From Pseudorhodobacter sp. (GTDB lineage: Bacteria > Pseudomonadota > Alphaproteobacteria > Rhodobacterales > Rhodobacteraceae), in NCBI GenBank assembly GCA_024642045.1, contig JAHEBX010000015.1:1-32837 (forward strand): 32,837 nt of DNA, written 5' to 3'. The notes under the pieces are model-generated. The model did not search any database and was not told the DNA's origin. It worked only from the letters and a program-made list of their open reading frames with translations. Shown in pieces: positions 4,108 through 17,489 of the stretch. Every line of letters starts with the position of its first letter. Within the stretch, counting starts at the first letter, position 1. The translations under genes and the position numbers were made by a program.

Positions 4108-5013
4108 ATGGACTGGGACAAGCTTCGGATATTTCATGCGGTGGCTGATAAGGGCAGCTTGACCCATGCGGGTGAGGTGCTGCACTTGTCGCAATCCGCT
4201 GTCAGCCGACAGATCCGCGCGCTGGAAGAAAGCCTTTCTGTAACCCTTTTCCACCGCCATGCCCGCGGGCTGATCCTGACCGAACAAGGCGAATTGCTGT
4301 TTGACGCCACCCAGCAGATGGTCAAGCGGCTGGATGCCACAGCGGCACGGATCCGCGATAGCGAGGACGAGGTTTTTGGCGAGTTGCGCGTGACGACCAC
4401 GATGGGCTTTGGCACCATGTGGCTGGCTCCTCGTCTGCCAAAACTTTATAAGAAATACCCCAGCCTGAAAATCGACCTGATGCTGGAGGAACGTGTGTTG
4501 GACCTGCCGATGCGCGAGGCCGATGTGGCGATCCGGATGAAAGAGCCGTCTCAGGCCGATCTGATCCGCAAGCGGCTGATGAACATCAAAATGCGGCTTT
4601 ATGCGACGCAAGAGTATCTGGCCGAATTCGGAACCCCCACGACGATGGCGGATTTCTCGCAACACCGGCTGATTTGCCAGCATGCAGGCACCCCACAGGT
4701 ATCAGCGGGGGCCGATCTTGTGGCTGACCTAATGAGCCATGACATCCCTTCAAAGCTGACGGTGAACAACTATTTCGGTGTGTTGCAGGCAGTGCTGAAT
4801 CATCTGGGCATCGGCGTTTTGCCCGACTACATCACGATGGATTTCCCACATCTGGTGCGCGTGCTGCCCGAAACGGAAAGCGGAGAAGTGCCGGTGTTTC
4901 TCGCCTACCCCGAAGAGTTGCGCCATTCAAAACGTGTCGCCGCCTTTCGGGATTTCATAACCGAAGAGATCGTGGCGTTTCGCAAACAACACGCGGCGCA
5001 AGCCATCGGCTGA
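4108..5013 (+). CDS. LysR-type transcriptional regulator
   Basis: A 301-residue LysR-family regulator. Residues 1-62 form the winged helix-turn-helix (WDKLRIFHAVADKGSLTHAG, then LSQSAVSRQIRALEE and LFHRHARGLILTEQG). The rest is the periplasmic-binding-protein-like effector domain beginning at LRVTTTMGFGTMWLAPRL. The ATG at 4108 has GGAG five bases upstream; an in-frame start at 4075 would add 11 residues without a ribosome site. It stands alone on the plus strand, divergent from the acyltransferase. A T-N11-A palindrome of the LysR type lies 18 bases after its stop, in front of a small-RNA candidate, so it may control that RNA. The inducer is unknown. Confidence 0.93.
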   Translation: MDWDKLRIFHAVADKGSLTHAGEVLHLSQSAVSRQIRALEESLSVTLFHRHARGLILTEQGELLFDATQQMVKRLDATAARIRDSEDEVFGELRVTTTMGFGTMWLAPRLPKLYKKYPSLKIDLMLEERVLDLPMREADVAIRMKEPSQADLIRKRLMNIKMRLYATQEYLAEFGTPTTMADFSQHRLICQHAGTPQVSAGADLVADLMSHDIPSKLTVNNYFGVLQAVLNHLGIGVLPDYITMDFPHLVRVLPETESGEVPVFLAYPEELRHSKRVAAFRDFITEEIVAFRKQHAAQAIG

Positions 5014-5030
5014 TCATTGCTGCAGCAGCT

Positions 5031-5045
5031 ATGCGCCTGACGCAT
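5031..5045 (+). promoter_or_regulatory. LysR-type box upstream of the small RNA
   Basis: The palindrome ATGCG-N5-CGCAT contains the T-N11-A core of LysR operators (T5032, A5044). It continues as AACG. The same ATGCGnnnnACGCATAACG string recurs at 16636-16654 in front of the DUF1127 gene. It lies about 41 bases before a candidate -35 element. Confidence 0.55.
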
Positions 5046-5078
5046 AACGGCAATGCCGCAGGTGCAGCCTATTCATGA

Positions 5079-5107
5079 TTGAGACATACCAGCCATAGGT
5101 ATAGGAA
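5079..5107 (+). promoter_or_regulatory. Candidate promoter of the small RNA
   Basis: TTGAGA (5079-5084) can serve as -35. The -10 would be TATAGG (5100-5105, 15-base spacer) or TAGGAA (5102-5107, 17-base spacer). Transcription would start near 5112. The match is moderate; support comes mainly from its position between a LysR box and a structured RNA. Confidence 0.45.
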
Positions 5108-5111
5108 CACC

Positions 5112-5193
5112 GATGAGGCGGTAATTGAGTTCGCTCTTACCTTCTCATACCTCCCTGTTGGACTTGGCCGAGCGAAAGCTCGGCCTTTTTTTT
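5112..5193 (+). ncRNA. Small RNA candidate with anti-Shine-Dalgarno loop (suhB/alpha-r14-like)
   Basis: About 82 bases with the layout of a trans-acting regulatory RNA. The 5' hairpin has stems GGTAA/TTACC (5120-5124 with 5137-5141) and GAG/CTC closed by a TTCG tetraloop (5130-5133). A single-stranded, pyrimidine-rich stretch (5142-5165) contains ACCTCCCTGTTGGACTT, complementary to ribosome binding sites. A perfect eight-base-pair terminator follows. The CTCCCTGTTGGACTTGGCC segment resembles what I recall of the alphaproteobacterial suhB/alpha-r14 (MmgR) family, an approximately 77-base RNA tied to polyhydroxybutyrate control in Sinorhizobium. That family assignment is from memory and untested. 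The short open frames across it lack ribosome sites. The exact 5' end is a guess. Confidence 0.65.
5166..5193 (+). terminator. Strong intrinsic terminator
   Basis: GGCCGAGC (5166-5173) and GCTCGGCC (5178-5185) pair perfectly around a GAAA loop and are followed by eight T (5186-5193). It ends the small RNA and would also stop read-through from the LysR gene. Confidence 0.93.
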
Positions 5194-14231: not shown

Positions 14232-14318
14232 ATTGAAAATGTGTCGTTTTTCGACTTTCTGAATTGAGCCCTCGCCGATATAGCGATGGGAACGAAAGCG
14301 ATTGAAAGAGGGCTGCGC

Positions 14319-15317
14319 ATGATCACCATCGGGATTAATGGCTTTGGCCGGATTGGCCGTTGCACCTTGGCCCATATCGCGGAAAGCGCGCGCAACGATG
14401 TGCAGGTGGTGGCGATCAATGCAACGGGGCCGATCGAAACAAATGCGCATCTGCTGAAATACGATTCCGTTCATGGTCGCTTTCCTGGTGTGGTCAAGGT
14501 CAGTGGCAACGAGTTGGACCTTGGACGCGGACCGATGCGGGTGATGAGCACCTATAATCCTGAAGAGCTTGATTGGGAGGGCGTAGACGTGGTGCTGGAA
14601 TGCACCGGCAAGTTCAACGACCGTGACCGCGCGGCAGTGCATCTGGGGCGTGGGGCCAAGCGGGTGCTGGTGTCGGCGCCTGCCAAGCGCGCGGATAAGA
14701 CGGTGGTTTACGGGGTCAACCATCGCCAGTTGACGCCCGAGCATCGGGTGGTGTCGAACGCCTCTTGCACAACGAACTGTCTGGCCCCTTTGGCCAAGGT
14801 GTTGAACGATGCGATTGGCATTGAAAGCGGGATCATGACCACGATCCACAGCTATACCGGTGATCAGCCAACGCTGGACCGGCGCCACAAGGATCTGTAT
14901 CGCGCACGGGCGGCGGCGATGGCGATGATCCCGACCTCGACCGGAGCCGCCAAGGCGATTGGCGAGGTACTGCCAGAGCTTGCCGGAATTCTGGACGGAT
15001 CGGCGCTGCGCGTGCCGACGCCCAACGTCTCGGCGGTCGATTTGACCTTTATCGCCAAGAAATCGGTGACGGTGGCCGAGGTCAATCAGATCGTCAAAGA
15101 GGCGGCTGCGGGTTACATGGGCATGGTGATGTCTTATGATGAAGAACCCAAGGTTTCAATCGACTTCAATCACACGCCGTTCTCGTCTATCTTTGCGCCA
15201 GATCAGACCAAGGTGGTGGGCCGTTCGGTGCGCGTTTTGGCTTGGTATGACAACGAATGGGGCTTTTCCTGCCGTATGGCCGATGTGGCTGGGGTGATGG
15301 GACGGCTCCTCCAATAA
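14319..15317 (+). CDS. gap1: Type I glyceraldehyde-3-phosphate dehydrogenase, probably NADP-accepting
   Basis: A 332-residue GAPDH, converting G3P to 1,3-bisphosphoglycerate or the reverse. It has the NGFGRIGR Rossmann start, the active-site SNASCTTNC (Cys150), His177 in [10 protein letters not shown], and WYDNEWGFS near the end. The acidic residue that selects NAD by binding the adenosine ribose is replaced: INATGP (Ala35) where gap2 has INDLGP. Positions 188-189, near the 2'-phosphate site, are Arg-Arg. This resembles gluconeogenic GapB-type or photosynthetic NADP enzymes, so NADP(H) use is likely but inferred. The ATG at 14319 follows AGAGGG; an earlier ATG (14286) lacks a site. First of three genes with the 47-residue peptide and gap2. 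Confidence 0.93.
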   Translation: MITIGINGFGRIGRCTLAHIAESARNDVQVVAINATGPIETNAHLLKYDSVHGRFPGVVKVSGNELDLGRGPMRVMSTYNPEELDWEGVDVVLECTGKFNDRDRAAVHLGRGAKRVLVSAPAKRADKTVVYGVNHRQLTPEHRVVSNASCTTNCLAPLAKVLNDAIGIESGIMTTIHSYTGDQPTLDRRHKDLYRARAAAMAMIPTSTGAAKAIGEVLPELAGILDGSALRVPTPNVSAVDLTFIAKKSVTVAEVNQIVKEAAAGYMGMVMSYDEEPKVSIDFNHTPFSSIFAPDQTKVVGRSVRVLAWYDNEWGFSCRMADVAGVMGRLLQ

Positions 15318-15511: not shown

Positions 15512-15527
15512 ATGTTAGCGCTAGCAA
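15512..15527. promoter_or_regulatory. LacI-type operator of gap2
   Basis: ATGTTAGC-GCTAGCAA matches the palindrome TTGTTAGC-GCTAACAA at 14 of 16 positions. It overlaps the -10 (ATGTTA, 15512-15517) of a candidate promoter whose -35 is TTGAAT (15489-15494, 17-base spacer). That position suits repression. Confidence 0.6.
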
Positions 15528-15563: not shown

Positions 15564-16565
15564 ATGACCGTCAAAGTCGCCATTAACGGATTTGGTCGTA
15601 TTGGCCGCAACGTTCTGCGCGGGATCATCGAATCCGGGCGCAAGGATATCGAAGTAATCGCCATCAACGATCTGGGTCCGGTGGAGACCAACGCGCATCT
15701 GTTGCGCTTTGATTCGGTGCATGGCCGCTTTCCGCACGAAGTAACCACTGGCGAAGATTGGATTGATGCGGGCCGTGGCAAAATGCGGGTGACCGCGCTG
15801 CGCAATCCCGCCGATCTGCCGTGGAGTGATGTGGATATCGTGATGGAATGCACCGGCATTTTTACCAGCAAGGAAAAATGTCAGGCGCATCTGGAGAACG
15901 GCTCTAAGCGCGTGCTGATCTCGGCTCCGGGTGATGGCGCGGACAAGACCATCGTTTACGGTGTGAACCACAGCACGCTGACCAAAGACGATATCGTCGT
16001 CTCGAACGCGTCCTGCACCACCAACTGCCTGTCGCCGGTGGCGCAGGTATTGAACGAGACCGTGGGCATCAAGCGCGGCTTTATGACCACCATCCACAGC
16101 TATACCGGCGATCAGCCGACGCTGGATACGATGCATAAGGATCTCTATCGTGCTCGCGCTGCAGCGTTGTCGATGATTCCGACCTCGACCGGCGCGGCCA
16201 AGGCCGTCGGTCTTGTGCTGCCAGAGCTTAAGGGCAAGCTGGACGGTGTGGCGATCCGCGTGCCGACGCCGAACGTCTCGGTCGTCGATCTGGTGTTTGA
16301 AGCGAACCGTGAGACGACCGTGCAAGAGATCAATGATGCGATCCGCGCTGCGGCGCTGGGCCGCCTCAAGGGCGTTTTGGGCTTTACCGATCAGCCGAAT
16401 GTCAGCTCTGACTTCAACCACGACCCGCATTCTTCGGTGTTCCATATGGACCAGACCAAAGTGATGGATGGAACAATGGTACGCATCCTAAGCTGGTATG
16501 ACAACGAATGGGGCTTCTCGAACCGCATGGCCGATACAGCTGTGGCGATGGGCAAGCTGATCTGA
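15564..16565 (+). CDS. gap2: Type I glyceraldehyde-3-phosphate dehydrogenase, NAD-type
   Basis: A second full-length GAPDH (333 residues). It has NGFGRIGR, Asp36 in INDLGP (the NAD-selecting acid), catalytic Cys151 in SNASCTTNC, His178 in [10 protein letters not shown], and [14 protein letters not shown]. It is therefore expected to be the NAD-dependent, glycolytic or Entner-Doudoroff enzyme. AGGAGG lies six bases before the ATG, the strongest ribosome site in this section, which fits high expression. It has its own promoter region with a LacI-type operator and ends at a strong terminator. It is clearly homologous to gap1 but well diverged, so the pair is not a recent duplication. Confidence 0.96.
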
Positions 16566-16612: not shown

Positions 16613-16635
16613 GTTACGGCATTTCTGAATGAGCC

Positions 16636-16650
16636 ATGCGTTATACGCAT
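16636..16650 (+). promoter_or_regulatory. LysR-type box upstream of the DUF1127 gene
   Basis: ATGCG-N5-CGCAT with T-N11-A core (T16637, A16649), followed by AACG, identical in all defined positions to the box at 5031. Its centre is 30 bases before the -35 of the DUF1127 promoter, near -65 relative to the expected start, the usual LysR recognition position. An overlapping inverted repeat, GCGTTAT/ATAACGC (16638-16655), strengthens the dyad. Confidence 0.6.
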
Positions 16651-16672
16651 AACGCAGTCTTGTTAATGGCCG

Positions 16673-16700
16673 TTGTTGGGCCATGCGGCTTTCCTATATC
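16673..16700 (+). promoter_or_regulatory. Candidate promoter of the DUF1127 gene
   Basis: TTGTTG (-35, 16673-16678) and TATATC (-10, 16695-16700) with a 16-base spacer. Transcription would start near 16707, leaving a leader of about 55 bases. Confidence 0.55.
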
Positions 16701-16762: not shown

Positions 16763-16924
16763 ATGAAATCGTTTATCGCACAGTTCCGTGACGCCGCCGC
16801 AAAACGCGCGCTATACCGTCGCACCCGTGATGAAATCGCGCATATGTCGCGCCGTGAAGCGCTTGATCTGGGGATCTTCCCTGAAGATGCTGCAAAGATC
16901 GCGCAAAAGGCTGTCTGGGGCTAA
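16763..16924 (+). CDS. DUF1127 small protein
   Basis: A 53-residue basic protein. The core RRTRDEIAHMSRREALDLGI is the DUF1127 (YjiS-like) signature, preceded by MKSFIAQFRDAAAKRALY. AAAGGAAAG lies three bases before the ATG. In Rhodobacter sphaeroides a DUF1127 protein (CcaF1) is an RNA-binding factor acting with CcsR small RNAs under stress, so an RNA-related role is possible here; that is family knowledge plus inference. It is monocistronic, between the gap2 terminator and its own terminator. Its promoter has the LysR-type box shared with the small RNA at 5112. Confidence 0.9.
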   Translation: MKSFIAQFRDAAAKRALYRRTRDEIAHMSRREALDLGIFPEDAAKIAQKAVWG

Positions 16925-16946
16925 CCCCGGCACCATACGACGTTTC

Positions 16947-16969
16947 GGGGGCCTCGCGGCCCCCTTTTT
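16947..16969 (+). terminator. Intrinsic terminator of the DUF1127 gene
   Basis: GGGGGCC (16947-16953) and GGCCCCC (16958-16964) pair around TCGC, followed by five T. It overlaps the last bases of the convergent carbonic-anhydrase-like gene. Confidence 0.9.
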
Positions 16970-17489
16970 ATTTGACCAAAGTGAGCCCTTTGGCGAAACG
17001 GCGGGCATTGGCCTGATAGCCGCGCGCCGACATCAGCAGCCGCGCCTGTGCCTCGTCGTCCAACATGCGGATCACTTTGCCTGGGGCGCCCATCACTAGG
17101 CTGCCGTCTGGGATTTCCTTGCCTTCGGTGATCAGGGCACAAGCGCCAATCAGACAGCCCTTACCGATTTTGGCACCGTTCAGGATGGTCGCGCCCATGC
17201 CGATCAGGCTGCCATCGCCAATCGTGCAGCCATGCAGCATCACCATGTGACCAATGGTGCAATTTGCGCCAATTGTCAGCGGATAGCCCATGTCGGTATG
17301 CAGAACCGCGTTTTCCTGCACGTTCGAGCCTTGGCCTATGCGGATTTCCTCGTTGTCGCCACGCAAAGTGGCCCCAAACCAGATGTTCGCCTCGGGTTCC
17401 AGCACCACGCGGCCAATGAGCACGGCGGTTTCGGCAACCCAGGCACTGGCTGCAATTTCGGGGGCGATGTCGTTCAGGGCGTAAATCAT
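16968..17489 (-). CDS. Gamma carbonic anhydrase family protein
   Basis: A 173-residue left-handed beta-helix (hexapeptide repeat) protein of the gamma-carbonic-anhydrase family (YrdA/PaaY/CaiE branch). Metal-ligand histidines are in place: His64 ([11 protein letters not shown]), His81 and His86 ([14 protein letters not shown]). The hexapeptide turns run from about 20 to 130, and the family ending GAPGKVIR is followed by a C-terminal helix. Many members of this branch have weak or no CO2 hydration activity, so I keep the family name. The ATG overlaps the gmk stop by four bases (ATGA), indicating coupled translation at the end of a yicC-gmk unit. Confidence 0.9.

Follow-up and report, generated by a model that had tools for sequence, protein, structure and literature searches.

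Two identical palindromic boxes occur in the 32,837-nucleotide stretch of Pseudorhodobacter sp. DNA analysed here (hereafter, the window). They are best explained as sites bound by the LysR-type regulator encoded immediately before the first of them, an apparent ortholog of LsrB/VtlR of rhizobia and Brucella, which would activate a SorY-type small RNA, a DUF1127-like gene and further targets; we put the probability of this reading at about 0.85. The regulator is predicted to recognise, ahead of the -35 element, the dyad GCYATGCR-N5-YGCATRRCGG, and to switch on two separate short transcripts in the window, the SorY-type sRNA and the DUF1127-like gene located behind gap. Elsewhere in the genome, its probable targets are a CcaF1-CcsR-like operon, another DUF1127 gene with a 2-mismatch box and an efp/DUF6280 pair. 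The model is based on conservation, orthology, synteny, box distribution and promoter spacing, and activation as the direction of regulation is suggested by analogy with the published LsrB/VtlR.

Two boxes in the window

The sequence ATGCGnnnnACGCATAACG is present in exactly two copies in the window, at 5031 and 16636, and the core of each box is the dyad ATGCG-N5-CGCAT with T-N11-A. The 19-base pattern ATGCGNNNNACGCATAACG is matched exactly by positions 5031-5049 and 16636-16654, which are its only 0-mismatch matches across the 3.49 Mb genome assembly (95.9% complete). When as many as 3 mismatches were allowed, 5 matches were found in the window, where shuffles averaged 1.41 (5 or more in 1 of 100 shuffles), the 3 extra ones being the same two palindromic places on the opposite strand. 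Box 1 (5028..5050, + strand; core dyad 5031-5045) has 0 mismatches to the 23-base pattern GCYATGCRNNNNNYGCATRRCGG and is placed between the LysR gene, whose stop codon is at 5011-5013, and the SorY-type sRNA; its core begins 18 bases past the gene. Box 2 (16633..16655, + strand; core dyad 16636-16650) has 1 mismatch and precedes the DUF1127-like gene. Box 1 is followed by a second, weaker dyad (5053..5070, + strand; consensus cATGCtGCAnntGCgGcat in 42 aligned loci), possibly an activation half-site.

The earlier note on this DNA had described identical boxes about 11.6 kb apart with T-N11-A cores, the first of them 18 bases after a LysR gene, a short terminator-bounded transcript behind each, and box-to-minus-35 distances differing by about 11 bases; all of this was borne out, and the window holds no other exact copies. 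The 19-base pattern, with its four free positions, had been picked out visually in 33 kb of sequence, and a chance repeat of a palindrome might be suspected on that account; given that the box is enriched family-wide, clustered at particular genes and conserved in orthologous promoters, as detailed below, such a coincidence is extremely improbable.

LysR-type regulator

The regulator (301 aa; 4108..5013, + strand) has an HTH_1 and a LysR substrate domain and is in reciprocal best match with rhizobial LsrB; unnamed in the earlier note, it is, as judged from sequence, the LsrB/VtlR ortholog. When the LysR protein of a Rhizobiaceae genome (G499) was searched back against this genome, the window gene was the best match (1.3e-69), followed by an 85%-identical copy on contig C252 (2.4e-69) and then by a match at 1.1e-39. 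Matches to the gene at E<=1e-55 were present in 87 of 144 alphaproteobacterial genomes, singly in 83 and as two in 4. Of 41 Rhizobiaceae genomes, 39 had exactly one match at E<=1e-50 and two had none. The second lysR of this genome, on the 3.8 kb contig C252 (locus L151), has its own 3-mismatch box and SorY-type sRNA; it may be a genuine duplicate, or C252 may have strayed into the 265-contig assembly.

In the phylogenetic tree, Rhizobiaceae rows grouped together (100/100), as did Rhodobacteraceae rows (93/82). Assignment of the lineage from the tree alone was rejected, as eight paralogs of this genome were found in two places on end branches of 2.2-9.7 changes per column; because these long branches leave the root unsettled, orthology was deduced from reciprocal matches, copy number and synteny. 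With regard to the latter, an adjacent trxB has been described as a Rhizobiales feature of lsrB in the literature accessible to us, and a trxB motif was detected upstream of lysR in 28 of 29 Rhizobiaceae and 22 of 25 other alphaproteobacterial loci; directly upstream of the window gene there is no trxB, the place being taken by an acyltransferase on the other strand. One of the papers, in its available part, calls LsrB unique to Rhizobiales, which the ortholog found here argues against, and another reports VtlR/LsrB from many Alphaproteobacteria (PMC7486931).

Identity to the G499 protein amounts to 45/62 positions in the DNA-binding (HTH) part versus 65/231 in the remainder, suggesting that the target-reading half is conserved and the sensing half much less so. 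LsrB of Agrobacterium is reported to be a thiol switch in which C144 and C273 are conserved (PMC11975290, accessible text). The columns taken for these residues were assigned by context, the Agrobacterium protein itself being outside the alignment; of the 30 rows from Rhizobiaceae, 23 had Cys at each column, compared with 1 and 0, respectively, of 25 other rows and none of the 84 from Rhodobacteraceae (the window gene counted twice). The window protein is thus classed as an ortholog rather than as a redox switch, and its signal is therefore probably other than the rhizobial C144-C273 thiol switch.

SorY-type small RNA behind lysR

The sRNA downstream of box 1 (5116..5193, + strand) contains CCTCCC at 5150-5155 and ends with the terminator hairpin GGCCGAGC followed by T8 (5166-5193), both on the same strand. 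Its predicted promoter (5079..5105, + strand) consists of a -35 element TTGAGA (5079-5084), assigned by TTG spacing, and a -10-like TATAGG (5100-5105), assigned by eye. The Rfam SorY model (RF02651) scored 52.9 bits (E 4.5e-10), under its gathering score of 111, and the sRNA at the same position in Luteovulum azotoformans (L041) reached 111.4 bits, over it; hence the designation SorY-type.

Rfam first indicated SorX, with 47.0 bits just over the cut-off of 46.6. We rejected this name, since SorY aligns over the full model without long gaps, the L. azotoformans counterpart passes the SorY cut-off, and this genome has a far better SorX match (79 bits) on contig C132, behind an OmpR-type gene. 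The two families have the core ACCUCCCUGUUGGA in common, and among eight lysR loci scanned with Rfam, that of L. azotoformans passed SorY, four passed SorX only and three passed neither. The SorX on C132 has no box, the best candidate having 6 mismatches; a second SorX-like hairpin RNA is found about 120 bases further on (locus L152). No AbcR (ar15, RF02345) was detected in this genome at E<=1e-4 under stricter filters, nor at the window sRNA at E<=1.

Downstream of lysR the box is widely retained. In 80 loci (the window plus 79 of 80 named loci, with 250 bases of downstream sequence; L084 was too short and was dropped), GCYATGCRNNNNNYGCATRGCGG was found with 0, 1 and 2 mismatches in 21, 24 and 15 loci, i.e. 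in 60 of 80, an in-sample count because the pattern had been refined on the same loci; the other 20 had 3-7 mismatches, and none of 800 single-base shuffles came within 2. Furthermore, CCTCCC was located at +108 to +125 in 42/42 alignable loci.

DUF1127-like gene behind gap

The 53-aa product of the second transcript (16763..16924, + strand) scored 22.4 bits (E 1e-4) against PF06568, narrowly below the cut-off of 23.3, and is therefore called DUF1127-like. The predicted promoter (16673..16700, + strand) has a -35 element TTGTTG (16673-16678), with the TTG at +40, and a -10 element TATATC (16695-16700), read by eye. The ORF is bounded by the gap terminator on one side and on the other by its own terminator-like hairpin, read from the sequence (16944..16972, + strand). 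A match to this protein was found in 9 of 14 same-genus relatives searched, and all 10 cases, the window included, retain the core dyad with no more than 1 mismatch, placed between -125 and -128 relative to the match start; among nine more distant matches the dyad was kept in 6 and not in L355, L362 and L363.

Several features of these surroundings are worth recording. Two different gap genes stand in tandem in the window (14286-15317 and 15564-16565). A TTAGCGCTAAC-like palindrome, possibly the operator for a carbon regulator of LacI type, lies over the -35/-10 spacer of many DUF1127 promoters (L346-L354, L361) and, in the window, before gap (15513-15525). Other LysR genes adjoin other DUF1127 matches of this genome on contigs C216 and C254.

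Distribution of the box among genomes

With at most 1 mismatch, GCYATGCRNNNNNYGCATRRCGG produced 272 matches in 99 of 120 Rhodobacteraceae genomes (at least 90% complete; a full dyad may count on both strands), against 8 for the reversed pattern. The 21 genomes lacking such a box speak against the regulon reading. Among the matches listed, 129 sites were considered after the two readings of each dyad had been merged, the non-SorY sites of this genome being examined apart, and about 87 of these are at DUF1127, lysR-sRNA, efp/DUF6280 or RSP_7527 genes. The suggestion of the earlier note that boxes would cluster at DUF1127 and small-RNA loci and be conserved in orthologous promoters is hence upheld, and its proposal of a joint LysR regulon of an sRNA and a DUF1127 protein gains support from this clustering, from the orthologous conservation and from the adjacency to lysR.

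As for the individual classes among the matches listed, a DUF1127 ORF was found within 500 bases of 37/129 sites, to which L229 and L100 were added by eye; the profile used was seeded with five proteins of this genome and iterated on matches, and Pfam's own model recovered 33 of these 39 sites at E<=0.01. In L092 and L235 the DUF1127 gene is further off, or the box in that direction is poor. A lysR gene precedes the box at 31/129 of the listed sites, with the CCTCCC-terminator motif in 30 of the 31. The efp gene adjoins 9/129 of them, plus L285, read as lying beside a DUF6280-like gene; L299, with an efp fragment more than 500 bases away, was kept out of this count, and the Pfam check of DUF6280 covered the protein of this genome. 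An RSP_7527-type gene follows 7/129 of the listed sites, 3 passing NCBIfam NF046098 and 4 recognised by eye. About 42/129 of the listed sites are outside the four gene classes, many inside an ORF of at least 150 codons in some frame, and this too counts against the regulon reading; they include lpd (3), pdhA, lipA, carD and a CoA transferase, identified by eye except for lipA. The boxes near lpd, pdhA and lipA (L231, L259, L265, L303, L095) are at parts of the pyruvate dehydrogenase pathway.

In the genome studied here, sites with at most 1 mismatch are those of SorY, the gap-side DUF1127-like gene, a DUF1127 gene on contig C24 (1 mismatch), the efp/DUF6280 intergenic region on C142 and one inside a coding region on C176, the last taken as chance. 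A third DUF1127 gene, on C254, has a 2-mismatch box, and the DUF1127 matches on C210, C216 and C254 (at 27722) have none with 3 mismatches or fewer.

Co-occurrence with the regulator gene

Class-wide, the 87 genomes with a lysR ortholog yielded 82 box matches (control 11) and the 57 without one at E<=1e-55 yielded 15 (control 5), corresponding to 0.257 and 0.137 per Mb. A box with at most 1 mismatch was located 18-181 bases past the 3' end of the lysR match in 16 of the 87 lysR-bearing genomes (list compiled by hand). Since matches exceed the control also in genomes without lysR, co-occurrence was rejected as a strict test and the link is a quantitative one. The expectation in the earlier note that boxes would accompany this LysR gene thus stands as far as the box beside lysR in many families is concerned; class-wide it holds in a quantitative sense only.

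Other alphaproteobacterial lysR loci (25 read out of 27, two having given no ORF by the rule used) had the core dyad with at most 1 mismatch downstream in 20 of 25 cases versus 14 of 500 shuffles. SorX-model matches at E<=0.05 adjoined lysR in 13 of the 27, none over the cut-off. In one locus, L180, trxB-lysR is followed by three tandem SorX-model matches, all under the cut-off. For Rhizobiaceae, locus sequence was obtained for 30 of 39 matches; 9 of the 29 readable ones carried the core dyad downstream, and 10 the published GCAT-N3-TG-N3-T. Box 1 agrees with 6 of the 7 fixed positions of this motif and box 2 with only 4, which weighs against the regulon reading, as do the missing trxB neighbour and redox cysteines of the window gene. 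Averaged over 61 loci, the published 15-mer in fixed register scored 10.5/15, and shuffled motifs 3.9/15. The gene order in G499 is trxB-lysR-abcR1-abcR2-arsR (protein names read from ORFs); the two tandem ar15 (AbcR) sRNAs scored 127 and 119 bits, and this genome has a third at another place. A near-identical box, ATGCGGACAGCGCATAAC, precedes abcR1 in G499, in the stretch ATGCGGACAGCGCATAACTGGCATGC, close to box 1 of the window. The order trxB-lsrB/vtlR-abcR has been described (PMC7486931, PMC8844928), as has the binding and activation of PabcR1 by LsrB (PMC8844928), in the accessible text of these papers.

The boxes might instead be occupied by a different dimeric regulator controlling both genes, with the LysR neighbour being incidental, a reading to which the excess of matches in genomes without lysR and the second palindrome in many DUF1127 promoters lend something. 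We regard it as quite unlikely, with the box directly downstream of the lysR ortholog in many families, its near-identity to the box in front of abcR1 in a trxB-lsrB-abcR locus, the conserved HTH and the published LsrB-PabcR1 binding all pointing to the LsrB/VtlR ortholog.

Promoter geometry and mode of action

Measured from where the 23-base box begins, the -35-like TTG of the window stands at +51 in the SorY promoter and at +40 in the DUF1127 promoter, a difference of 11. The same range, +34 to +56, was searched in both promoter classes: SorY-side loci had TTG at +50/51 in 68 of 69 and at +40/41 in none. Of the 37 DUF1127 loci among the matches listed, 31 had it at +40/41 and one at +50/51. 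The one-turn difference is therefore a property of two promoter classes, in which nature has set up a comparison of helical phasing for LysR activators. In rhizobial promoters behind lsrB, TTG was at +40 or +41 in 10/10, and the SorY spacing looks derived.

A site upstream of -35 at a fixed phase is the usual place for LysR activators. This placement, as well as the activation of sRNA and DUF1127 targets by LsrB/VtlR published for rhizobia and Brucella (PMC7486931, PMC12595884, PMC8844928; available text), disfavours a regulator acting from the boxes mainly as repressor or modulator, with RpoHI/RpoHII sigma factors setting expression. That alternative draws upon the assignment of SorY, ccaF1-CcsR and RSP_7527-udsC to RpoH-type sigma factors in R. 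sphaeroides (accessible parts of papers including PMC10253847 and PMC9779115), which also weighs against the regulon reading, and we consider it unlikely.

As SorY occupies the place of the rhizobial AbcR1, a circuit of lsrB, sRNA and DUF1127 probably goes back to the ancestor of the Alphaproteobacteria. In a broader reading, which we favour with some reserve, LsrB/VtlR would be ancestral to the class and would throughout it activate regulators that act after transcription, both sRNAs of the CUCCC type and small DUF1127/RSP_7527 proteins. For Rhodobacteraceae, it would supply the transcription factor so far lacking for SorY, CcaF1-CcsR and RSP_7527-UdsC, acting through two promoter layouts that differ by one helical turn; the thiol redox switch would be a later rhizobial addition.

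Relation to known systems

LsrB/VtlR has so far been studied mainly in rhizobia and Brucella, and stress RNAs of Rhodobacter are well studied; the accessible literature places the latter under alternative sigma factors and names no LysR regulator. Our search, with most subscription papers outside its reach, revealed no paper joining VtlR with SorX, or LysR with CcsR and R. sphaeroides, and the available text on LsrB and DUF1127 makes no link to Rhodobacter. If the model holds, one LysR regulator would join SorY, CcaF1-CcsR, other DUF1127 proteins and RSP_7527-UdsC, the RSP_7527 mRNA being the described parent of UdsC (PMC9779115, accessible part); the Rhodobacter stress-sRNA network would gain a defined transcription factor and be tied to a regulator that serves symbiosis and virulence in rhizobia and Brucella.

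The window sRNA resembles R. sphaeroides SorY in sequence and terminator, with the L. azotoformans sRNA at the same position passing the Rfam cut-off; unlike it, the window copy is under that cut-off, and the regulators named for R. sphaeroides SorY in the literature accessible to us are sigma factors. The CcaF1-CcsR1-4 (CIN1) locus, an arrangement described in PMC10253847, has its likeness in a small DUF1127 gene followed by tandem CCUCCUCCC stem-loops in L. azotoformans (L329; 71 aa) and on C24 of this genome (about 72-75 aa). The parallel with CcaF1 and CcsR drawn in the earlier note is thus close to literal, the DUF1127 gene, CcsR-like stem-loops and 1-mismatch box being present in the same genome; the locus differs from the published one in that the available text of PMC10253847 mentions no LysR-type box ('LysR' occurs 0 times).

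The VtlR/LsrB-AbcR-DUF1127 regulon of Brucella, Agrobacterium and Sinorhizobium, which in Brucella melitensis places AbcR2 and three DUF1127 genes under VtlR (PMC12595884, accessible text), differs from the system described here in several respects: the sRNA here is SorY-type and not ar15/AbcR, trxB is not adjacent, the redox cysteines are absent, the SorY box is one helical turn further from -35, and RSP_7527 (in other genera), efp/DUF6280 and CcaF1-CcsR are extra candidate targets. Both systems have in common an orthologous LysR gene with a CUCCC-bearing sRNA directly downstream, and DUF1127 genes with a box of the same dyad that precedes the sRNA.
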